Shown one piece after another: positions 1 through 13,589 of a stretch of 64,000 nt of DNA (the stretch's first letter is position 1; each line of letters begins with the position of its first letter). The notes under the pieces were generated by a model. It was not told the origin of the DNA. It saw only the letters and a program-made list of their open reading frames with translations, and did not search any database. The translations under genes were made by a program, and so were the position numbers. The stretch comes from Blastopirellula sp. (lineage in GTDB: Bacteria; Planctomycetota; Planctomycetia; Pirellulales; Pirellulaceae), in contig NVWB01000005.1 of NCBI GenBank assembly GCA_002733575.1, forward strand, positions 1 through 64,000. Direction: 5' to 3'.

Positions 1-1595
1 TCGGCTCCATCAGGATCGCCTCCCCCATAATTTTCATCATCTCTTTTGGCGCGTCGTTTCTTGCGTTTTGACTCTCTGTCGAAGCCGCCCCCTTCATATT
101 CTTCTCCATAACCAGAATCGTCATCGAACTCATCCTCTCCGTAAGCTCCCTCCTCGCCTGCTTCGAAATCGAGTTCCAACTCTTCTTCATAAATGACTTC
201 TTCGCCTTCAAACTCGCCATCCGTAAAGGGTTCATCGCCGAATGGATTATCACTTTTATCATCTCCAAATGGATCGGGGGCTTCGCTGTAGGGAGCGTTT
301 TTCCCTTTCTTGAAAGAATTGTACTTTTCAATCAATTTTGTGTTTAAAATCTTGCCAGGCTTCTCGGTCTCTTTCTTAACTTTTTCAAAGGTACCATCAG
401 GCCTCATTTGGTCTAGCAAGTTGGCAATGGCTGCGTGGGTCTCTTGGGTTTGTAACACAAACAGAGAATTCGTGGCCCTATCTTGCATGATTTGGCCAGG
501 GCCGCCCGCTGCATTCCAACTGTCAGCATGGACCGAAGTAGTGACTAACGCCACCAAAGAATTCCCATCTTGATCCGTCGCGGATAGTAGTCCATTCATC
601 GAATAGGCTCGTAGCGAGATCAGCGTTTCATTCACTTCTTCGGTCGTGACAAATAGCGTTTCTTGATGATCGATTGCGATTAGTTCTCGCTCTTTCAAAA
701 TCGTATCAATCACATAGCGTGCCGTGTGTCCTTTGGCCAGTGTGATGTTTATCGTTTCTCCTGTATCAAGTCCAACATCGTCTAATGCTCGGGTATCAAT
801 CTGTATTGAAATATCAAGCACTTGTTGCAAGAAATCGATGGCTTCGGCCAGTGGCGTATCAACGAAATCAATCGTGTCGAGTCTTTGCTCTAGAGCGGCT
901 TGTATCCGAGGGTTCCGGGCCGGGGCAATATCAGTCACCGCTGATTTATGTGGTGCAAGTAACTGATTGTAAACCGTTAAGAAACGGACAACAGCACGGC
1001 GGTTCTGCTGTGTTTGTTGGAGCACAAAGCCTGCTCCAGTAGGGCAAAGAGTTCCATACCCGCCGACGGTATCCCAGCTGTCAGGGGCAATCAACTTACG
1101 AATGTGAGAGGCCAATTGTTCGAGCCGAACATGCGGCTTGGCCAACATCGGTTGCAGCTTAAAGAACTTGGCTTTGACCTTTTCTTCGCTATCCTCATGC
1201 GTTGTGATCACAATGGTGCCTTGCTCAACGTAATATGTGAGTTCCAACTCGCTCAGGACCAACCGCAGAGCCGATCTCAAACTAATGCCATTCAGGTTGC
1301 GTGTGATTGGTGTATCAACCGCGAGCCCTACTTCTTCCAGTGCTCTCTTGTTCACGCGAACTTCAATATCATGCAGGGCAGATACAAACTCCACCACATC
1401 CTCCAGTGGCGTATCAGTAAACACGAACTCTGTTTTCTGAGAAAGCACTGCCTCGGTCTTGGCATCTTCTGGTTGTTGAAAGGCATTAAATTTCAGTAGC
1501 ACCGGTTGCTTAGATGCTGGCCTTTCATCGCCCGCTAAGTAAGAAACATGGCTGAAAAATACGCACAAACCCAATAGCACCACGAAACGCTTCAT
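1..1595 (-). CDS. Secreted STN/secretin-N-like repeat protein, 3' end cut by window edge
   Basis: Reading the minus strand from the ATG at 1595 gives an open frame through position 1, so at least 531 codons are present and the stop lies outside the window. The start MKRFVVLLGLCVFFSHVSYLA is a signal peptide. Two STN-like segments follow ('FTDTPLEDVVEFV' and 'FVDTPLAEAIDFLQ', each followed by 'RALxxVGL'). Each is followed by a secretin-N-like piece with a conserved 'DSWxxxGGxG' turn. The last 130 residues are acidic and low-complexity (GDD/EEE/FGDE) and end in a basic KRKKRRAKR stretch. It is the fourth and most divergent member of the tandem family occupying 2240-7377. STN and secretin-N folds are protein-interaction domains of outer-membrane machines; no secretin pore is seen. 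Role unknown, probably envelope. Confidence 0.85.
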   Translation of the reverse strand, partial: MKRFVVLLGLCVFFSHVSYLAGDERPASKQPVLLKFNAFQQPEDAKTEAVLSQKTEFVFTDTPLEDVVEFVSALHDIEVRVNKRALEEVGLAVDTPITRNLNGISLRSALRLVLSELELTYYVEQGTIVITTHEDSEEKVKAKFFKLQPMLAKPHVRLEQLASHIRKLIAPDSWDTVGGYGTLCPTGAGFVLQQTQQNRRAVVRFLTVYNQLLAPHKSAVTDIAPARNPRIQAALEQRLDTIDFVDTPLAEAIDFLQQVLDISIQIDTRALDDVGLDTGETINITLAKGHTARYVIDTILKERELIAIDHQETLFVTTEEVNETLISLRAYSMNGLLSATDQDGNSLVALVTTSVHADSWNAAGGPGQIMQDRATNSLFVLQTQETHAAIANLLDQMRPDGTFEKVKKETEKPGKILNTKLIEKYNSFKKGKNAPYSEAPDPFGDDKSDNPFGDEPFTDGEFEGEEVIYEEELELDFEAGEEGAYGEDEFDDDSGYGEEYEGGGFDRESKRKKRRAKRDDENYGGGDPDGA

Positions 1596-1730
1596 CGGTC
1601 TTCTCCCTGTCCACGGCCCTGTTTTCTGGTGGCCTAGACGCTTAGGCACACCCTCGCATTCCCGCATCGTCCCGTTTTATTGCAGCGGTTGCAAGGAATT
1701 TGTTGGAGAAAATTGGAAGAATTGTAAAAG

Positions 1731-1924
1731 GGTCAAAAGAAGCCGCCTTGCATGGGTGGGCCGAAAGTATCTGTTTTGAAGTTATGCGATTTTTTGATAT
1801 AAATCGGTGTTAAGTCCATTTGAGATGACACTTTAACTTTGGGTGGCAGCGATGATGATTCCGGAGTTGGTTCTGCTTCGGGATCAAACGTGTTCGGAAC
1901 GTCGTCGGTGTGGCCGAAGGCCAT
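1731..1924 (-). pseudogene. Relic of the C-terminus of an STN-repeat paralog
   Basis: The minus-strand frame ends in PPMQGGFF, the same C-terminus as the intact paralog at 3897-5597. At DNA level, positions 1731-1759 and 3895-3923 are nearly identical (one mismatch in about 29). Upstream of this tail the reading frame is proline/serine-rich linker-like sequence with no STN module. This looks like the leftover 3' end of a fifth paralog or a misplaced duplicate. The remaining sequence up to 2239 holds no recognisable gene. Confidence 0.5.
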
Positions 1925-1958
1925 CAGAGGTTACAGCGGCCAAGAATTCACGGAATTC
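1907..1958. repeat. Dispersed repeat, copy 1 (other copy 48161-48210, inverted)
   Basis: About 43 of 50 bases match the reverse complement of 48161-48210. The core reads GGCCATCAGAGGTT, then CAGCGGCCAAGAATTCA. In one frame both copies read AIRG(Y/F)SGQEF. Nothing else in the flanks matches clearly, so this is a short dispersed repeat rather than a gene duplication. Confidence 0.6.
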
Positions 1959-2239
1959 TTATACCGTATTCGCCTCGATAAAGCCTGGATTTGCAGGGTA
2001 ATAATGGAAACCGCTCTAACCTCTAATCGACTAACGTCGACCCCGACGTCGTTTTGAATATGCGTATATGAATGGCATGCGTTCGCCAAAACCGACATCG
2101 CGGCCACCCGGAACTTTAAACCGAGCAATTTCAAAAAGTATCTGCTCGCCCAAGTTCTATCTCAGACTGCTTCCACTTAATCCCCTGCCTGTTGCACGCC
2201 ACTTTTCCCTCCGAACTTGCCACCTTGAGTAACGCCAGT

Positions 2240-3817
2240 TCAGCAGCCGCTACCTCCCATCACTTGCGGGCCGATAAATCCTTGCTCACTGAGAAACTCA
2301 TAGATTTTGAGGTGGTTGGTGCGAGTCTGTTTAATCAGCAAACGGTCTCCGATAACCATGATGGTGTTTTCATCCTTTTTCCAACTCTCAGGTTCTACTT
2401 CTTTCATGATGAGAACTTGAAGCTGCTGCAAGCTTTGTTGAATATCAGAACCCTTGGGCGATTCCTGGGCATACAGTCCAATTAGCCTGTAAGGATGCAT
2501 AATGGTCTTTTCGGCATCGACTAACCATGGCTTATCAACCGGTTGGCGATTGCGTTTTTGACGAATTTGGGCCAAGAGATTCTCAACCCTTTGGTGGTTT
2601 TCATCGGTTTGGGAGAGAATCAAACAATCTGCAATGGCATGCGGAGAGATCGATCCTGGTCCTCCTAGTTCTTCCCAAGATTCAGGATCAATGCTGGTCG
2701 AAATGGCTCCTATCAACCATTCGTATTTCGCCCATCCTCCATAATTAAAATAACGCCGAGCAAGTAGTTTATGCCCAACAGGATCAACTTGGATAAAATC
2801 TCGTACAGGGTAAACTCTTGTCGAAAGACGGTACTCAGCCTTATCAGGCGATGTAATAACGACCACATCGTCATGCATCATGAAGGCGAGATCGTACTCG
2901 TGAAGGAGATCGTGCAAGATGATCATTGCCGAAGTTGCTTTCCAATGGCCTGAGATTTTATGATTAACACTTAAGCCAATCTCATCCAATGCACGTTCAC
3001 TGATAAAGATATTCAAATCAATTTCTTGGCTTAAGAAATCCATTACCTCTTGAAGTGATGTCTCTTTGAAATTCACTTCTTTGATCGGCCTAGTAAGCTT
3101 TTCTTGAATTGTTGGGTCCGTACCCATGATGTCATTGGATGTTACATCGTACTTGTTATTGGGTAACTGTTTTACTCTTCGTAATGTTCTTAATAACGCA
3201 GCGATTTTCTCATGCATTTGCTCTACATGGCTAATCACAATTCCATTCTCTAAATTGTTGATCGCACCAGGCCCGCCCAGTTCCTCCCAGCTTTCAGGGT
3301 CGATTGATGTTATAATGCCTTCAATAAGCGAATTAAAATCAAGTTCGTTCTGTTCTCCTGGATCGACTAAATCCAGAACATCGTAATAAACCGTTTTCAG
3401 ATGCTCCTCCGCCTCCTCTGGAGTGGTAATCAGAATTCGGTTCCAACTGTTCATCCAAGTTAGATCAAGCTCGTTCAATAGAAGAGAGAGTGCTGTTTTC
3501 AGCCGCACTTGTTTTAAGTTGATCGAAACTACTGCTGCACCCGAGAGCCCTACGTCATCCAAGGCTCTAGTGTCAATCCGAAAAGGAACGCCTGACTCCT
3601 CTTGCAAATAGGCGACCACTTCAGTCAATGGAGTATCTATAAAATCAATCGTGATTCGCTTTTCAAGCCCGACCTTTAATTTCGCCAGTGACGTATCCTG
3701 CTTCTGTGTTTCAGGGCTGGGAATCACCGTAATCGGATCTTGTGCCGATGCTGCATGACCTAGAGATAACCCCAGCATAAGGCACAGTAGCAGTAAATTT
3801 TTAATCAAGGTTTGCAT
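2240..3817 (-). CDS. Secreted STN/secretin-N-like repeat protein (paralog 2)
   Basis: 525 residues with a signal peptide (residues 1-25, cleavage near ASAQ). Module 1 has an STN-like part ('DFIDTPLTEVVAYLQ', 'RALDDVGLSG') and a secretin-N-like part ('DPESWEELGGPG'). Module 2 repeats this ('NFKETSLQEVMDFLSQ', 'RALDEIGLS', then 'DPESWEELGGPG' again). A shorter third secretin-N unit ('VEPESWKKDENT') closes the protein, which ends GGSGC. No secretin channel domain or membrane segment follows. The stop codon is TGA. The gene lies 79 bp downstream of paralog 3 in the same direction, so co-transcription is likely. Function is not known; exported scaffold or ligand-sensing roles are possible from the fold. 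Confidence 0.85.
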   Translation of the reverse strand: MQTLIKNLLLLCLMLGLSLGHAASAQDPITVIPSPETQKQDTSLAKLKVGLEKRITIDFIDTPLTEVVAYLQEESGVPFRIDTRALDDVGLSGAAVVSINLKQVRLKTALSLLLNELDLTWMNSWNRILITTPEEAEEHLKTVYYDVLDLVDPGEQNELDFNSLIEGIITSIDPESWEELGGPGAINNLENGIVISHVEQMHEKIAALLRTLRRVKQLPNNKYDVTSNDIMGTDPTIQEKLTRPIKEVNFKETSLQEVMDFLSQEIDLNIFISERALDEIGLSVNHKISGHWKATSAMIILHDLLHEYDLAFMMHDDVVVITSPDKAEYRLSTRVYPVRDFIQVDPVGHKLLARRYFNYGGWAKYEWLIGAISTSIDPESWEELGGPGSISPHAIADCLILSQTDENHQRVENLLAQIRQKRNRQPVDKPWLVDAEKTIMHPYRLIGLYAQESPKGSDIQQSLQQLQVLIMKEVEPESWKKDENTIMVIGDRLLIKQTRTNHLKIYEFLSEQGFIGPQVMGGSGC

Positions 3818-3896
3818 CGTTCATCTAACTAAGAATAAAGGAGTTGGAATAATTACTGTATCAGTGAATGTTAGTTGTATGCTTTATGGATAAAGG

Positions 3897-5597
3897 TCAA
3901 AAAAAGCCGCCTTGCATGGGTGGATCAGATGGGTCGTCTGCTGGCTCAGGTTCTTCCTCAGACTGCTTCCATTCAGCTCCCGACGCTCCGCCACCTCCAA
4001 AACCGTTGTCTTGAAAACGGCCACCAAATCCTCTGTGTGATCGTTGAGTAGAGTTAAGAAAACCGAGGTCTTCGAGGAATCGGTAGATTTTGAGGTGAGT
4101 GGCCCTGACTTGGGTCACGATCAATCTATCCCCGATCGTCTCGATGGTATTCGCATCATTTTCCCAACTATCTGGCTCAACTTTGCTGGTGATTAAAGTC
4201 ATCAACCTCTCCAAGCTTTTTTGTCGTTCACCCTCAGTCGGAGAACTTTGTTGGCCAAACAATCCTGGCAGTGTATAAGCGTGTACAAACGGCTGACCGG
4301 CATTGACCAACCATGGTTTATCAATTGGCTGTCCCTTTCGCTTTAGGCGAATTCGAGTCAGAAGCTCCTTGATCTTTTGATGCACTTCATCGGTTTGTGA
4401 AATTACCAAACAGTCAGCAAGCTCAAAGGCTGAACAGGAACCTGGTCCACCACCTCTCGCCCAAGAATATGGTTCAATTGTCGCTGAGATTGCACTGATT
4501 AATTCATCATAGTCTGAGCTCCAATTGAGTAATTCATAACCTGTTGTATCTTGTGCTGCAAAATCTCGAACCGGGTAAACTTTTGTTATTAGATCAAATT
4601 CCGTTTCTACTAGAGTCGCAATCATTACCACATCATCGTGCATCATGTAGGCGAGATCGTGTTCGGTGAGTAGATCGCGCAAGATCGTCTTTGCTGAGGC
4701 GTTCTTCCATTGACCTGAGACTTTGAAAGAAGGGCTAAGGCGAATGTCATCCAGGGATCTTTGATCGATAAAGATATTTAAATCAATCGCTTCACTTAAG
4801 AAGTTCATTACCTCTGGGAGTGGTGCCCCTTTGAAATTCACTTCTTGAATTGGCTTGGCCAGCTTTTCTTGAATCGAAGGATCGGTGCCCATGATATCAA
4901 TTGGCGTCACATCGTATTTTTTGTTCGGCAATTTCTTTACGGTTCGTAATGTATCGAACAACGCAGCCACTTTCTCGTGCATGTAATCAGTCTGCTCGAA
5001 CACAATTCCACCATCCACAATATAAACTGGTGGTGGTCCGCTAAAGTCCCAACTCCCTGGTTCGATTGTGGTGAACATCAATTCAATAATGAAATCATAA
5101 TCAGGCTCCTGACCATAACTAGGCTCCTGATGCCCTTCTGCCATGACTAAGTCAAGCACATAATGATGCCTGGCTTCTAGATGGCCATCTGCTTCATCCG
5201 GTGTTGTAATCTCAATCCGGTTCTCGCTATATACCCAAGTCAGATCAAGCTGCCGAAGCATCAGCCTCAGCAGAATTTTCAGACGCACTTGCTTTAATTT
5301 GATGGTTATTGGAGTATCATCCAAGAGCCCTACGTCATCCAAGGCACGGTGATCAATCCGAAAAGGAACACCTGTTTTTTCTTGCAAATAGGCAACCACC
5401 TCAGCCAATGGAGTACCTTTAAAATCAACCGTGATTCGCTTTTGAATCCCAGCTTTCAGTTTTGCAAGTGCCTTGTCTTGCTCCTGTGTTTCCGGGGTCG
5501 GCACCACCGTTATCGGCTCTTGTGCCGATGTGCTGCTACTTATCGACAGACTCAAAACGAAACATAACAGCAGTAAAACATAATGTGAACGTAGCAT
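3897..5597 (-). CDS. Secreted STN/secretin-N-like repeat protein (paralog 3)
   Basis: 566 residues with a clear signal peptide ending STSAQ. It has the same plan as its neighbour: two STN-like plus secretin-N-like modules ('DFKGTPLAEVVAYLQ' and 'NFKGAPLPEVMNFLSE'; 'RALDDVGL' and 'RSLDDIRLS'), then a single C-terminal secretin-N unit. A Gly-rich and acidic tail ends DPPMQGGFF. It is close in sequence to 2240-3817, pointing to tandem duplication. The gap to the gene upstream (paralog 4) is 61 bp. The C-terminal tail is shared with the relic at 1731-1924. An exported envelope protein is inferred; substrate and partners are unknown. Confidence 0.85.
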   Translation of the reverse strand: MLRSHYVLLLLCFVLSLSISSSTSAQEPITVVPTPETQEQDKALAKLKAGIQKRITVDFKGTPLAEVVAYLQEKTGVPFRIDHRALDDVGLLDDTPITIKLKQVRLKILLRLMLRQLDLTWVYSENRIEITTPDEADGHLEARHHYVLDLVMAEGHQEPSYGQEPDYDFIIELMFTTIEPGSWDFSGPPPVYIVDGGIVFEQTDYMHEKVAALFDTLRTVKKLPNKKYDVTPIDIMGTDPSIQEKLAKPIQEVNFKGAPLPEVMNFLSEAIDLNIFIDQRSLDDIRLSPSFKVSGQWKNASAKTILRDLLTEHDLAYMMHDDVVMIATLVETEFDLITKVYPVRDFAAQDTTGYELLNWSSDYDELISAISATIEPYSWARGGGPGSCSAFELADCLVISQTDEVHQKIKELLTRIRLKRKGQPIDKPWLVNAGQPFVHAYTLPGLFGQQSSPTEGERQKSLERLMTLITSKVEPDSWENDANTIETIGDRLIVTQVRATHLKIYRFLEDLGFLNSTQRSHRGFGGRFQDNGFGGGGASGAEWKQSEEEPEPADDPSDPPMQGGFF

Positions 5598-5658
5598 GAT
5601 GATCTCTTGGTTCTATTGAATTGGGTTGCGTTGATCTTCTGTAAGCAAAGCCGGTTCG

Positions 5659-7377
5659 TTAGAAAAACCCGCCGCCGCTAGTGGTTTCAGCGGGGGTCCA
5701 TTTTGCTTTGGATTGCTCGCCAAACTTCTTTGGGCCTGCTTGCTCTTGGAAGTAGCTGGGGACTCGGGCCTCCAACAGCCCATGTTGAATCAGGTAGTTT
5801 TGAATTTCGATATGAATATGAGGGTCTTGCTTGATCACAAGGCGGTCTGCCACCACTTTCACATAATGGGCTTCTTCCTGCCAGCTTTCGGGGGCAATTT
5901 CTTTTTGAATCAGGCCGCTTATCTCTTTCAGTCGCTTGCGTATTTCTTTGGGTTTGGGTGGTTTGCTGTCGGAGTAGATATAGTTGCCGGAGAACAAAAT
6001 CAGCGAATCGTACGCATGCGTAATCGGCGGAACGGTTTTATGCAGGTCTCTGGTGTCAACAGGTTTTCTCTTGCGGTCTAGCCTGATTTTTGCCAGATAG
6101 CGTTCGATCTGCTCATGAATCTCTCTCGACTGTGAAATGACAAGGCAATTGGCCAAATGGAATTCAAATATTGCCCCATTGCCACCCACTTCCTCCCAAG
6201 AATAAGACTCAATGTTTGCCTGAATCACTTCCATCAACGCATCGTAGTACGGCAGCCGTGCATGCTGTGTATCGGAGTTCTTTCGATAGCTGTTCACATA
6301 CTTGGCCCAACTTTCCAGATCTCCAGGCTGAAGTAAGTCACGCACAGGATATACTTTGGTTAGCATCTTCCAATCGGTTTCTTCTGGATTCGTGATAACG
6401 ACGACATGATCATATAAGGTGAAAGTCAGATCATAATCACTCAGTAAAATATACAAGACCGACTCAATCGAAGAATGATTCCATTTACCAGTAAGTTGGA
6501 TGTCATCCACAGTCAACCCAATATCGTCAATCGCATTTTCATCGATGTGATAGGTTAGATTGTTTTCGCCAAGTAGCGTTTCCATTGCTTCTCTGAGCGG
6601 AGTTTTCTCAAACTGGATATCCTTGACTTTCTCTCTCAGTTTTTTGCGAGTGGCAATCACTTGTGGAGACATTGGCTTGATGTCAATTGAAGTGACATCA
6701 TATTGATTATTGGGTAGTTGCTTGACTTTTTTAATCACTGCCAACAATTCGGTAATCTGTTCGTGGATGTCCTCGGTCTGCCAAACAACCATTCCTTGTT
6801 CAAACTTCGTGATGGTTCCAGGGCCTCCTAATTTCTCCCAAGCCTCTGGCTCTAAGACCGTTGTGATCCCCTCAAACAATGAATCGTAAATAGATTGTGG
6901 GTTCGTCTCATTCGTTAATAAATCACTTAGGGGGTAATAGACTGAAGTTTCAATCCCATGACAATCTTCATAGGTAGTGATTAAGAGGTGTTCGGTGTAT
7001 GGATACCAAGTCAAATCAAGTGACCGCAGGATAAAGTGTAACGCCGTTTCAAAGCGAACATTTTTTAAGTGGATCGTCACCGGCACATCACTTGAAAGCC
7101 CTGCATCATCTAAGCCTCTCAGATCAATCCGAATATCGATCTGAGCCTTTTCTCGCAAAGCATCGACCACTTCGTTGAGCGGTGCTTCAAGAAATGAGAC
7201 CGTGATTCTTTGATCCAATTTCTGTTGAAGGATGATTTTCGCTGTCAGCAACTCATCCTTTGCCAGTTCAGCTTGACTCGGCACCAGCGTGATCGGTTCT
7301 TGAGCCAAGCCCCAAGTCGCCCAGGTGAGACACAGCGACACAGCGAACAGAAGCTTTAACGTGTTGGAAAGCGGCAT
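5659..7377 (-). CDS. Secreted STN/secretin-N-like repeat protein (paralog 4)
   Basis: 572 residues from the ATG at 7377. I chose this start over the ATG at 7437 because it begins directly with a signal peptide (MPLSNTLKLLFAVSLCL, ending GLAQ), whereas the longer form places 20 polar residues in front. It holds two STN-like/secretin-N-like modules ('SFLEAPLNEVVDALRE' with 'RGLDDAGLSSD'; 'QFEKTPLREAMETLL' with 'NAIDDIGLTVDD'), each followed by a 'SWEx(L/V)GGxG' segment. A third unit ends in 'APESWQEEAHYVKVVADRL'. The tail ends GGGFF like paralog 3. It appears to be the first gene of the tandem cluster and the probable promoter-proximal gene. Confidence 0.85.
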   Translation of the reverse strand: MPLSNTLKLLFAVSLCLTWATWGLAQEPITLVPSQAELAKDELLTAKIILQQKLDQRITVSFLEAPLNEVVDALREKAQIDIRIDLRGLDDAGLSSDVPVTIHLKNVRFETALHFILRSLDLTWYPYTEHLLITTYEDCHGIETSVYYPLSDLLTNETNPQSIYDSLFEGITTVLEPEAWEKLGGPGTITKFEQGMVVWQTEDIHEQITELLAVIKKVKQLPNNQYDVTSIDIKPMSPQVIATRKKLREKVKDIQFEKTPLREAMETLLGENNLTYHIDENAIDDIGLTVDDIQLTGKWNHSSIESVLYILLSDYDLTFTLYDHVVVITNPEETDWKMLTKVYPVRDLLQPGDLESWAKYVNSYRKNSDTQHARLPYYDALMEVIQANIESYSWEEVGGNGAIFEFHLANCLVISQSREIHEQIERYLAKIRLDRKRKPVDTRDLHKTVPPITHAYDSLILFSGNYIYSDSKPPKPKEIRKRLKEISGLIQKEIAPESWQEEAHYVKVVADRLVIKQDPHIHIEIQNYLIQHGLLEARVPSYFQEQAGPKKFGEQSKAKWTPAETTSGGGFF

Positions 7378-7558
7378 GATTAGGGTTTCATAGGTAGGAG
7401 AAACGTAGCGATTACGTTCTACAGTAGGCAGGGTCAAACTTGTACCCTAATCTATGGGGTCGGTTATGGCAAGTAATTTGCACTAATAGTCTCCATCTGA
7501 CACTCGCTTGTGTCTCTTGATATGATGAAGGGCTGAAAGCGAGAATTGGCGGACAGAG

Positions 7559-9254: not shown

Positions 9255-12200
9255 TCACTCGTCGCTTGTACCGGTCTCACCAAGCAAAGCCTTGGCTTCC
9301 TTGTACGCCAGCCACATTATCAGGTCACGCTTATCGGCATCGTCGGCAAGGGGGTTCTTTTCATCCGTAGGGAGTGGTTTCATTGTGGCTTCGGCTTGGT
9401 TGAACAGCGTGCGGGCTTCGTCTGGTTTGCCTTGTTGGAAGAGACTCATTGCACGATAGAAGTTGGCGGTGCCCTTAATAGTCCCGTTATCCAGAATTTC
9501 GGCAGCGGTACTGAGGCCATTGTTGGCCATGGCGTAGTGCCCACTGCGGTATTCGGCCATGCCAAGGCACACTTGAAAGTAGGGCAGTAGATCCTTGTGT
9601 TCGGGTCCAATTTCAACAGCACGCTGGGCAAGGGCGAGAACAGTTGCTCTCATCTCGTCATTCGAGATGGGGGAGATGCAACTAAGCTTGGCAACCCTCT
9701 TAAATTCACCCGGTTTTGTGGCATCTTTGGCCCACTTCAGCATTCGCTCTCTCGTGGCCAGATACTCGGCGTCCTTACTGAACCAGACCTGTAAAGCGGC
9801 GGTTTTCATGGCCAGAAATGTATCCCCAGGATTGTCAGCGGAGTATTCCGCCAACAGAGGAAGCGTTTCCACCGTGCGGCCCGCAGAAGCGAAAATTGTA
9901 AAAGCGGTGCTGGACAGTTCCGGTTTTGATTTCACCGCCTGCACACATGCGTCCAGGTTCTTCAGGTCCTTCAGGAGCATTTGGGTCTTGTCGTGGGCCT
10001 GTTGTCGCATCACGCCGTTCCTGATCGCTGTCAGGTACGCTGTGAAGGCTTCGCCTGATTTTCCGGATCGCTCGAGTAAGACTCCGAGATAGAACGGGGC
10101 ATTTGATTTGATCTTCGGATTCAGCTCGATGGCTTTCCGCCATGCGTCGATCGCCTCTTCTGTCCTCTCTTTTCGATCCAACTGGAACCCAAGATTGCTG
10201 TAGGAAATCGCCAGATTCCGCATTGCGCTGAGGGTGTCGGGGTGCTCTGGACCCGATACCTTACGATAAAGCTCTAGCAGCTCTTCAAGCATCTCCAATG
10301 CCTCATCTGGGCGACCAGCAATGCCATAGGAAGTCACCAGTGTATTCATCGTGTTAAGGGTGTCGGAGTGCTCTGGACCCGATATCTTACGATAAAGCTC
10401 TAGCAGCTCTATAAGCATCTCCAATGCCTCATCACGGCGACCAGCAATGTCATAGGAAGTCACCAGTGTATTCATCGTGTTAAGGGTGTCGGAGTGCTCT
10501 GGACCCGATATCTTACGATAAAGCTCTAGCAGCTCTTCAAGCATCTCCAATGCCTCATCACGGCGACCAGCATTGCCATAGGAAGTCGCCAGTGTTTTCA
10601 TCGTGTTAAGGGTGCTGGGGTGTTCTGGGCCCAATACCATACGGTCAAGTTCCAGCGTCTCTTCATGCATCTCCAATGCCTCGTCTGGGCGACCGGTTGC
10701 GTAGTACGAACTCACCAGTTTATTCATCGCCCTGAGCGTGTCGGGGTGTTCTGGACCCAATACCTTACTTTGAAGTTTTAGCACTTCTTCTTGCAACTCC
10801 AACGCCTCTTTTTGTCGTTCGGAAAGCGAGTAAAATCCCACCAGACGAATCATACTTTGGAGCGTGTGGGGGTGTTCATCGCCGCGAGACTTACGGCTGA
10901 GTCGCACTTTTTCCTCTTGCAGTTCTAATGCCTTTTGATGCTGACCAGCATTGAAGTAAGTAATTGCAAGTCCCTCCAGCGTCATGAGCGTGTGGAAGTG
11001 CTCAGGGCCGAGTACTTTACGACGGAGTGTCAATACTGCCTCCAACAGCTTCAACCCCTCGTCTAGGCGACCTTCTGCAAGGTACCCGTGCGCCAAATCA
11101 CGCATATAACCGAGAGTGCTATAGTGTTCGGGTCCATAAATTTTTCGGCCAATCGCAACGATTTGCTCTCGCAGTTCCCTACCCTTTTCAGGCTGACCAG
11201 CTAGGGAGTAGGAATTCGACAGGAGGACAAGCAACTGGATCACCTCTCCGCTCTCGTCGCCGTACAATTTTTGGCAAAGTGGAAGCATCTTCTCTACCAT
11301 TTCACAAGCCTTGTCTGGGTGCCCCGTCTTAACGTAGTAATCCGCCATAAATCGCATCGCATTGAGTGTGGAGGGGTGCTCAGGGCCGTGCAGTTTACGT
11401 TTTAGTGTCAGTATTTTCTCTTGCAGTTCAAACGCCTCTTTGGGCCGATAGATCTGGGAATATAAATGCGCCAATGTTTGCATTAATTCGAGTGTCAGAG
11501 GGTGTTCGGGGCCGTAGGTCTTAGTGCGGAATTCCAGCAGATCCTTTCGTATCTTCATCAGGTCCTCTCTAATCTTTAACGCCTCGTCTTTGCGTTCTTC
11601 GCGGTCATAGGAATTACTCAAACTCCGCATCGCATTGTGTGTATTGGAGTCCTCAGTACCAAAATTGGTAAAGTAATAGTCCCGCACCTTCTCTTGTAGT
11701 GGAATGGCTTCGTGATACAGGCCGAGCGTGAAATAGGTTTTTCCGAGGGTGGCTTGCAACTTGGCCCGCTGGGCAGGTTGGTCGGCGAGTTCCGTCTCCA
11801 GCTTTCCAACAGCGTTGCCGAGCGTCTCAGCCACAGTGATGGTGCGACCATCTCGGGCTGGGTCAGCGCTTTGGAAGACTTTGCTGAGAAACTTTGAAAT
11901 AGCTTCCGCCTCTTTTCGAGCCAGTTCTTTCGCGTCACGTTCAGCGGCGACTTGTACTAAGGTTTCGGCCGTTTTCTTCTCTGCTTCTACCGCACGGGCC
12001 GCTTCGACTTTGGCCACTCCTTCAGCATTGGTTGCCCGAACAGTTTCGTTTCTTGCTAATGTTTCTGCATTGGTTGCCCTCACTGCTTGCCAGACGCTGA
12101 AGGAGATGCCGATTACCAGGACCGCCACAATGGCCGTACCAGCGGTGATTGCCAGTTTATTTCGTCGACGAAGTTCCTCCGTCCGAATCAGAGCATCGGC

Positions 12201-13589
12201 TTTTGCCCTTTCGGTTTCTCGTAGTTTGTTCTCGACTGATTCTAAATAGCCAACCACTTGCTCGGCCAGCACGCCGGCGTCACGTGGGCGATCTTCTGGT
12301 TCGAGTTCTAAGCAATGTTTCGTGAGAGCAATTAATTCAACATCAGCTTCACAAGCATCAAGCCGCTCAAAACAATCTCCCAATTTGCCACGTGCCGCTT
12401 GACGATAGATGGAGTTACCATCGGTGCCAACATACGGCGGTTGGCCAGTGAGGATTTCGCACAGAATGGCCCCCAGTCCAAACACATCGGCTCGTTCGTC
12501 GAGGTGATCAATTTCACCCAACGCTTGTTCTGGCGGCATGTAGGCCGGCGTGCCCATCACGCTGCCCATTTGTGTTTCTGATCCCTGTGTACCGAACGTG
12601 CCCGGTGCATCACTACCGACACTGCGTAGCGTTTGGATAATGCTGACATCATTGAGTTTAGTATGGGCCTTCTTTTCATCGGCCACGCCACCTGTGGGCA
12701 GAACTTTGGCCAAGCCCCAGTCCATGACCTGAACTTCACCAAACGCCCCGACCATGATATTGGCTGGCTTCAAGTCTCGGTGAATGACACCGCGACTATG
12801 CGCGTAGGCCATCGTCTGACACATTTGTTCGAATATACCGAGTAACTTTCCACGATCAGCATTTGCATTTTCTCGTTCTGATAAAATGGCAGAAAGCGTT
12901 TTTCCTTTGACTAGTTTCATAGCGAAAAACGGGCGTTTGTCGGCAAACTGACCCAGTTCATAGATCGGAGCAATACCTGGATGCTGTAACTGCCCGCCGA
13001 TTTGGGCTTCTTCCACAAACCGCTGAACGATTTCTGGCTTGTCTTTATGATCATCAAGCAGCACCTTGATCGCCAAGTCACGACCGAGATCGGTATCGCG
13101 GCCTTTGATAATCGCCCCCATGCCACCGCGGGCAATTTCACCATCAAGTCGATAGCGACTGTCGGGGTTAGTTATCGGCATCTCAGACGACTTCGGTCGA
13201 ATAACTGAATCCGGCCCCTCTTCAATCGAATCTCGCAACGCAACCCGTGGAAGGTCTATCGTCTGGCCCAAGGTCCTCAATACACTGTGATTCGCACGCC
13301 CAATGACCACCGCTTCCTCTTCACCAAACGAAGCCGCCAACCCAGCTTCAAGAGATTCTGCCAAGTTGCCGCGTGAATTTTCAGGCAAGACGGTCGCTTC
13401 AAGTTCGGCTGCAGGTTTTTTTAGAAACTGTGATTCTTCAAGATAGGCTGAGAGTAGTTTCTCAACCCGCTGTTGCAAACCGGAGTCTTTACCGCAGGCT
13501 TCTTTTAGGTAAGCAGCCTGGTCGTCACTCGAATTGATTTTACGAGCGGCGTTGAAAATGGTGGCTTCGTTGGATGGCGCTTCAGACAT
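9255..13589 (-). CDS. Membrane Ser/Thr protein kinase with long TPR array
   Basis: 1444 residues. Residues 1-60 are the leader usual in planctomycete kinases. The kinase domain spans about 146-450: glycine loop GEIARGGMG (150-158), catalytic Lys175, HRDLKPAN loop (270-277), DWG in place of DFG (290-292) and the APE-like 'MPPEQAL'. One transmembrane helix covers about 479-500, followed by an Ala/Glu-rich coiled coil. Kinesin-light-chain-type TPRs of 42 residues ('LGPEHPxTLxxMxxLAxxYxxxGRxxEAL') run from about 620 to 1130, then further TPR-like helices reach the end. All kinase catalytic residues are present. It probably forms an operon with the ECF sigma gene 108 bp upstream; ECF factors paired with Hanks kinases are a known arrangement. 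The substrate may be that sigma factor. Confidence 0.92.
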   Translation of the reverse strand: MSEAPSNEATIFNAARKINSSDDQAAYLKEACGKDSGLQQRVEKLLSAYLEESQFLKKPAAELEATVLPENSRGNLAESLEAGLAASFGEEEAVVIGRANHSVLRTLGQTIDLPRVALRDSIEEGPDSVIRPKSSEMPITNPDSRYRLDGEIARGGMGAIIKGRDTDLGRDLAIKVLLDDHKDKPEIVQRFVEEAQIGGQLQHPGIAPIYELGQFADKRPFFAMKLVKGKTLSAILSERENANADRGKLLGIFEQMCQTMAYAHSRGVIHRDLKPANIMVGAFGEVQVMDWGLAKVLPTGGVADEKKAHTKLNDVSIIQTLRSVGSDAPGTFGTQGSETQMGSVMGTPAYMPPEQALGEIDHLDERADVFGLGAILCEILTGQPPYVGTDGNSIYRQAARGKLGDCFERLDACEADVELIALTKHCLELEPEDRPRDAGVLAEQVVGYLESVENKLRETERAKADALIRTEELRRRNKLAITAGTAIVAVLVIGISFSVWQAVRATNAETLARNETVRATNAEGVAKVEAARAVEAEKKTAETLVQVAAERDAKELARKEAEAISKFLSKVFQSADPARDGRTITVAETLGNAVGKLETELADQPAQRAKLQATLGKTYFTLGLYHEAIPLQEKVRDYYFTNFGTEDSNTHNAMRSLSNSYDREERKDEALKIREDLMKIRKDLLEFRTKTYGPEHPLTLELMQTLAHLYSQIYRPKEAFELQEKILTLKRKLHGPEHPSTLNAMRFMADYYVKTGHPDKACEMVEKMLPLCQKLYGDESGEVIQLLVLLSNSYSLAGQPEKGRELREQIVAIGRKIYGPEHYSTLGYMRDLAHGYLAEGRLDEGLKLLEAVLTLRRKVLGPEHFHTLMTLEGLAITYFNAGQHQKALELQEEKVRLSRKSRGDEHPHTLQSMIRLVGFYSLSERQKEALELQEEVLKLQSKVLGPEHPDTLRAMNKLVSSYYATGRPDEALEMHEETLELDRMVLGPEHPSTLNTMKTLATSYGNAGRRDEALEMLEELLELYRKISGPEHSDTLNTMNTLVTSYDIAGRRDEALEMLIELLELYRKISGPEHSDTLNTMNTLVTSYGIAGRPDEALEMLEELLELYRKVSGPEHPDTLSAMRNLAISYSNLGFQLDRKERTEEAIDAWRKAIELNPKIKSNAPFYLGVLLERSGKSGEAFTAYLTAIRNGVMRQQAHDKTQMLLKDLKNLDACVQAVKSKPELSSTAFTIFASAGRTVETLPLLAEYSADNPGDTFLAMKTAALQVWFSKDAEYLATRERMLKWAKDATKPGEFKRVAKLSCISPISNDEMRATVLALAQRAVEIGPEHKDLLPYFQVCLGMAEYRSGHYAMANNGLSTAAEILDNGTIKGTANFYRAMSLFQQGKPDEARTLFNQAEATMKPLPTDEKNPLADDADKRDLIMWLAYKEAKALLGETGTSDE
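10198..10738 (-). repeat. 126-bp near-identical tandem repeats inside the kinase TPR region
   Basis: The phrase GTGTCGG(A/G)GTGCTCTGGACC recurs at 10234, 10360 and 10486, with a diverged copy at 10612, exactly 126 bp (42 codons) apart. The central copies differ by only a few bases, so they arose by recent duplication of single TPR units. Repeat number may vary among strains. Confidence 0.85.

Follow-up and report, generated by a model that had tools for sequence, protein, structure and literature searches.

Work on secretin gate domains usually treats them as components of the pore. As far as the accessible passages of these papers go, the isolated N-domain of XcpQ self-assembles into a hexamer of dimers (PMC5646246), the N0 domain of Neisseria PilQ binds PilP (PMC3441751) and the PilQ of Akkermansia is located in the outer membrane (PMC4960237). 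DotD of the Dot/Icm type IVB system and Xanthomonas VirB7 are described as separate proteins that bear an N0 domain and belong to other outer-membrane complexes (PMC2951367, PMC3093366); both are lipoproteins with a single N0-type domain that belong to type IV secretion machines. Here, we describe an array of four neighbouring minus-strand genes (A to D) of Blastopirellula sp., located within positions 1-7437 of the 64,000-nucleotide stretch that was analysed (the window; contig NVWB01000005.1 of assembly GCA_002733575.1). Their products resemble DotD and VirB7 in being separate proteins with a secretin-type N0 domain, but they carry N0-N1 in tandem, have no lipobox and, as far as the contig extends, have no such machine beside them. 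They are very probably tandem paralogues, without the pore, of the N0-N1 gate region in the PilQ-like secretin of planctomycetes, exported according to their signal segments.

A PilQ-like secretin of this kind is encoded in the same genome (G000, 9.25 Mb in 438 contigs, 88% complete; C, G and L numbers are our labels for contigs, genomes and loci). Contig C71 carries a secretin of 1,325 aa (Secretin, 75.2 bits) downstream of a gene matching Amuc_1101/PilM in NCBIfam, in an operon similar to that of Amuc_1098/Amuc_1101. The secretin also lies downstream of two proteins with hydrophobic N-terminal segments, recognized by eye and without Pfam matches, and this four-gene order recurs in G037. Like A to D, this secretin contains N0-N1 with the SWExxGGxG turn, placed directly before the core. 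However, it also has the pore domain, its N-terminal part is long and PilM lies upstream of it, whereas A to D have two units, no pore and no PilM-type neighbours. A unit profile built from the eight window units scored 58.6 and 65.8 bits on the C71 secretin, and a window protein shares 52% identity with its unit across 61 residues. In the two relatives L124 and L126, the N-terminal part contains TPR matches.

The genes of the array and their units are listed below. The eight full units come from the unit profile and the phylum survey, and the half units are given with their unit profile scores.

5659..7377, minus strand: gene A, with signal peptide, N0-N1, N0-N1, N1-like half and GGGFF tail (frame open from TTG 7437; ATG at about 7377)
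6730..7221, minus strand: unit A1 (N0-N1), whose structure was predicted as a single unit
6082..6642, minus strand: unit A2 (N0-N1)
5782..5991, minus strand: third, N1-like half unit of A (17.1 bits)
3897..5597, minus strand: gene B, with the plan of gene A and an MQGGFF end (AlphaFold model of the full protein)
4944..5447, minus strand: unit B1 (N0-N1), with the degenerate motif SWDFSGPPP
4347..4865, minus strand: unit B2 (N0-N1)
4065..4298, minus strand: third, N1-like half unit of B (25.5 bits)
2240..3817, minus strand: gene C, with the plan of gene A, the tail lost (stop, frame change, inserted repeat)
3179..3667, minus strand: unit C1 (N0-N1)
2561..3100, minus strand: unit C2 (N0-N1)
2282..2521, minus strand: third, N1-like half unit of C (22.5 bits)
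3..1595, minus strand: gene D, with signal peptide, two N0-N1 units and an acidic tail with [DN]PFG repeats, running off the contig end
969..1445, minus strand: unit D1 (N0-N1)
402..896, minus strand: unit D2 (N0-N1)

The window begins at base 1 of the contig (C406), so gene D is cut off there. All four proteins start with a hydrophobic signal-type segment. Past the N-terminus, none of their 19-residue windows reached 1.6 on the Kyte-Doolittle scale, which leaves them without a membrane segment, and no lipobox was present within the first 60 residues. Hydropathy and lipobox scans thus agree with the initial annotation, which had reported four adjacent genes with these properties and with two or three repeats of an STN/secretin-N pair. 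Each protein does contain two full N0-N1 units (196-235 bits per unit against the profile, by construction), but the third repeat of A, B and C is an N1-like half only (17-26 bits). Nor is the SWExxGGxG turn invariant, as had been stated, since unit 1 of B departs from it. Identity to protein B is 36-39% for A, 56% for C and 24-29% for D.

Pfam recognized STN above the cut-off in A alone (30.7 bits versus 28.4). STN, FecR_C or Secretin_N matches in B, C and D were all below the cut-off, with below-cut-off FecR_C matches in all four proteins, and the Akkermansia PilQ family of NCBIfam matched them weakly. The secretin core (PF00263) was absent by Pfam and NCBIfam from A, B, C and the readable part of D, and the reported lack of a channel domain stands to that extent. 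A secretin-core profile built here gave weak scores on the window proteins, those of gene C falling in its N1 helices.

Predicted structures point to the secretin gate. The AlphaFold model of protein B had a mean pLDDT of 70.6 (80-94 in the cores, below 50 in the tail), and its best PDB matches in Foldseek were the N-domains of XcpQ, GspD and EscC (E 2.4e-7 to 3.7e-5). Unit A1, predicted alone (pLDDT 84.6), retrieved PilQ, EscC and GspD as best matches and aligned with PilQ N0-N1 over 137 residues (VIA-align, Z 10.5), at an rmsd of 8.2 that we read as a differing hinge angle. The N0 half alone also matched DotD (Z 9.2). Whole-unit TM-scores for A1 were low, about 0.3-0.5, and the fold call therefore depends on the two halves and their order. 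Run against PDB sequences, the unit profile retrieved nothing significant; PilQ was collinear at E 1.2-2.4, below chance matches to uricase. On the predicted models, the assignment of the window units as secretin-type N0-N1 gate domains holds. The proposal of gate modules without a pore is thus borne out by structure prediction for protein B and unit A1, and by the presence of the unit inside a secretin of the same genome.

Searching the genome with protein B returned 14 places: the four of the array, two on C84, one each on C85, C189 and C125, two on C71, and one each on C100, C69 and C298. The C125 place is one STN unit in a VWA/TPR protein, the C100 place is a zinc-ribbon-like protein, and those on C69 and C298 are weaker. 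PF00263 scored above the cut-off in eight open frames of this genome. The C125 protein (L018, 5044-9336) is 1,430 aa long and includes a Gly-rich GGGFFAV stretch and a C-terminal secretin-core-like piece. The C69 place (L021, 5492-7231) is a DUF1598 protein with a short SWEELGGPG stretch, near-identical to that of the C71 secretin.

The wider family was present in 39 of 40 relatives, and the unit was found in 143 of the 149 phylum genomes. This phylum survey was used in place of a direct scan of genome contigs, which gave three loci only. In 18 of the 29 best phylum loci, the unit lies directly before the apparent start of a secretin core, and the Secretin domain was confirmed in all four further proteins scanned (L111, L118, L124 and L126). 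Because of this distribution, core adjacency and confirmation, the unit looks like the usual N0-N1 of the secretins of this phylum. Gate-only proteins detected with the unit profile recur in many relatives. Tandem copies occur on C84 (two) and, as two to four genes, in L095, L099, L100, L101, L082, L083 and others. The search of Planctomycetota that had been proposed for the cluster therefore recovers both the unit and tandem gate-only arrays, without a conserved partner gene. Gate-only proteins are real as a widespread, little described variant of a known domain, and the suggestion of a new envelope module goes further than this one locus allows. The locus had been over-read as special, while its C-terminal tail was rightly judged worth a look. 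One tandem locus, L083, is titled Candidatus Nealsonbacteria and contains three planctomycete-type units in tandem; it is probably a mis-binned contig.

In a tree of 100 units, the first units of A, B and C group with the first units of G018 and G233 proteins, and second units stand apart from them. Since first units cluster across genomes in this way, the two-unit plan looks old. D joins the C84 and C85 proteins, and the array is shown by its sequences to comprise two subfamilies, A/B/C on the one hand and D with the C84 and C85 proteins on the other. This was a quick tree, with 48 of its 97 inner branches open and many weak forks. Secretin rows (23 of 100) were labelled by hand, an automatic rule having labelled one of 100: five by Pfam, four as C71-type by a partly self-derived core profile, and the rest by the motif that follows the unit. 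These rows require five label changes, which, together with the weak forks, means that descent of all free units from a single secretin lineage is not established by the tree. End branches had a median of 0.9 for the rows, whereas secretin units from this order had 0.2-0.3. Compared with four relatives, the secretin unit of this genome shows 55-67% identity; for any window unit, the best identity outside the genome is 37-47%.

A second feature of the array is its Gly-rich C-terminus. It had been described as conserved between copies, which is the case for A and B; C lost it to a repeat, and D, which is cut off at the contig end, does not show it. Searched across 117 genomes of the order, GGGFF followed by a stop was found at 46 sites versus 15 for the reversed pattern, whereas GGGLL-stop, four times more degenerate, gave 31 versus 44. 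GGGFF-stop ended an open reading frame (ORF) of at least 150 aa at 26 of the 30 sites read, seven of the 26 belonging to the N0-N1 unit family, and GGGLL-stop did so at two of 30. The remaining GGGFF proteins mostly look exported and include lipoprotein-like families and two proteins with a Poly_export domain. GGFF forms the end of five of 31 free-standing proteins, and in a further two GGGFF lies within about 12 residues of the C-terminus. The shorter GGFF-stop pattern, which admits TGG and whose sites are mostly not gene ends, showed no excess in this genome (10 versus 8 reversed) or in four relatives (21 versus 32). A genome-wide excess of GGFF tails was accordingly rejected at that length by the reversed-pattern counts; it is the longer GGGFF form that is in excess in the order. 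In the 149 phylum genomes, GGGFF-stop occurred at 21 sites, four of them from G000 and G018, and five of the 19 sites read ended an ORF of at least 150 aa, two of the five from the same two genomes. Only this order and its near kin show the excess.

The export signal of these proteins was compared with background for 20 of the 30 GGGFF-stop sites, after dropping four short frames and six cut by the locus edge. At a hydrophobicity cut of 2.0, 12 of 15 non-unit GGGFF proteins passed versus 50 of 181 background frames (p 9e-5); the 15 represent six families, and eight of them come from one family. At a cut of 2.4, the difference was not significant (p 0.06). GGGFF-stop is thus a real C-terminus across the order, mostly on exported-looking proteins, and the idea of a sorting or docking signal has gained support to that degree, with the signal role itself a candidate. 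According to the partial source available, GlyGly-CTERM/rhombosortase offers a parallel in that a short C-terminal signature is found on otherwise unrelated exported proteins. However, GlyGly-CTERM consists of a motif, a membrane helix and a basic end, whereas the tail of the array is Gly-rich and stops at FF without a helix after it. In G018, a secreted-looking frame of 372 residues (L158) has a PF00263 match of 31.4 bits, ends in GGFF and has no N-domain match; its sequence reads as a pore-type domain without a gate.

How such proteins might act can be sketched from their counterparts. A to D would be exported by Sec, lose their signal peptides by cleavage and remain periplasmic, each forming a chain of N0-N1 modules. 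These chains could dock through the usual N-domain contacts, to the N-ring of the PilM-linked secretin, to a PilP/GspC-like partner or to each other, and the proteins would then add accessory or adaptor layers to an outer-membrane complex instead of forming a channel, with the Gly-rich FF C-terminus as a docking or retention tail. We put this docking mechanism forward tentatively, by analogy, as the likeliest of the readings considered; it is close to the scaffold and 'receptor for a distant secretin' readings of the initial annotation. Several observations weigh against it. The N0 half alone fits anti-sigma STN domains equally well or better (Z 11.7 and 10.1). A to D lack the lipobox that DotD and VirB7 have, and the loss of the tail from gene C means that it is not retained by every copy. 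The sequences suggest that free units diverge faster than the secretin's own unit, which does not speak for a tight, fixed interface. No conserved partner gene was found beside the free-standing genes in the loci compared. Six ORF groups recur in at least three loci; among them are a common kinase type, other common families and a frame that runs opposite to the unit genes. As no group goes specifically with the free-standing genes, a shared operon partner was rejected. In the loci searched, no secretin gene was found beside the free-standing genes either, save for a 238-aa protein in G023 with a short secretin-core-like piece. With neither a partner gene nor a secretin beside them in these loci, the free-standing genes do not appear to be encoded with a dedicated machine; no secretion machine recurs beside the genes of relatives, and the array's own contig ends inside gene D.

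An alternative view is that N0-N1 is a general interaction module, copied into many exported planctomycete proteins, whose free forms have drifted into varied jobs without any tie to secretin function. The long end branches, the lack of conserved partner genes, and the presence of the unit or its N0 half in the VWA/TPR and zinc-ribbon-like proteins of this genome all favour it. Nevertheless, across many genomes the free-standing proteins have kept N0 ahead of N1 as well as their export signals, and often two units, and the VWA protein too carries a secretin-core-like piece that points back to secretins; we regard this explanation as unlikely, though with an appreciable chance of being right. 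It is less probable still that A to D belong to the surface or matrix, or are cargo, and that the PilQ-like system handles them without their being parts of it. Such a role would suit their signal peptides, their low-complexity tails (Gly-rich or acidic), their duplication in tandem and their rapid divergence, as well as the sharing of GGGFF tails with lipoprotein-like and polysaccharide-export proteins, but gate domains are not known as cargo.

The STN domains of FecR/PupR and of TonB-dependent transducers have a fold like that of the N0 half, and they belong to membrane-anchored or barrel-fused signalling proteins without N1. A role of A to D in cell-surface signalling, with the STN half working as in those proteins, would account for the FecR_C matches and for the anti-sigma regulator STN that heads the structural list for the N0 half. 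We consider it very unlikely, as A to D have no membrane segment with which to reach a sigma factor, every N0 is followed by N1 as in secretins, and the sequence kin of the unit in the phylum are largely secretins. That the array consists of decaying fragments of secretin genes is scarcely credible. The broken tail and inserted repeat of gene C might suggest decay, but A and B have intact frames, the readable part of D is open, and each has its own signal peptide; the unit is doubled, which it is not in the C71 secretin, and two-unit relatives exist in other genomes. The intact frames largely refute decay.

Exported proteins that consist of the gate alone, widely spread and expanding in tandem, would mean that one bacterial group has dismantled the gate and reused it. 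They also offer soluble, tractable material for tests with the pilus secretin of planctomycetes, and GGGFF-stop is a simple, testable candidate for a C-terminal envelope signal. The planctomycete envelope holds complexes of unknown make-up, such as the crateriform structures mentioned in the accessible part of one paper (PMC5394234). A more speculative proposal, which we consider improbable, is that the Gly-rich FF C-terminus in this order is an undescribed envelope docking or sorting tag. Lipoprotein-like families, Poly_export proteins, a pore-only secretin-like protein and the pore-less N0-N1 arrays would all carry it. As its clients, the arrays would form additional ring layers, either on the PilQ-like secretin or independently of it, and these layers might belong to crateriform complexes. 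No paper on free-standing secretin N-domain proteins of planctomycetes or on the GGFF tail was found, which is weak evidence of absence because subscription papers were mostly uncovered. The secretin passages of PMC8567305, PMC3422733 and PMC11131199, the parts of those papers considered, have no bearing on free-standing N0-N1 proteins.

Gene C ends at an early stop, with its former tail region out of frame. The following features were located there.

1774..2134, minus strand: dispersed repeat of 361 bp that has terminal inverted repeats and is inserted where gene C formerly had its tail
1764-1773 and 2135-2144: 10-bp direct duplication bounding the repeat
1733..1750, minus strand: leftover MQGGFF-stop past the repeat

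The repeat has at least 39 further places in this genome at E <1e-50, a lower bound since scoring covered 40 of 191 candidates. Of nine copies compared, four are full-length with inverted ends TTGAAGTTGC/GCAACTTCAA, and the ends of the window copy are degenerate. From these features we read it as a small, transposable-type element similar to a miniature inverted-repeat transposable element (MITE).

The acidic tail of gene D has counterparts of its own. At least two copies of [DN]PF[GE] were present in five of the 31 free-standing proteins versus none of 284 neighbouring open frames, the carriers being gene D (3-1595), L015, L016, L083 and L095. The start of C85 (L016, 2-412) encodes what by eye is an N1-like half, together with a GGGGGFFNVAD tail. 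A further two-unit gene comes next, and gene D groups with it in the unit tree. The frame at 2-412 could continue gene D; chance frame agreement would be one in three. Beside the array, positions 9255-13589 encode a protein of 1,444 aa that by eye combines a serine/threonine kinase with TPR repeats.

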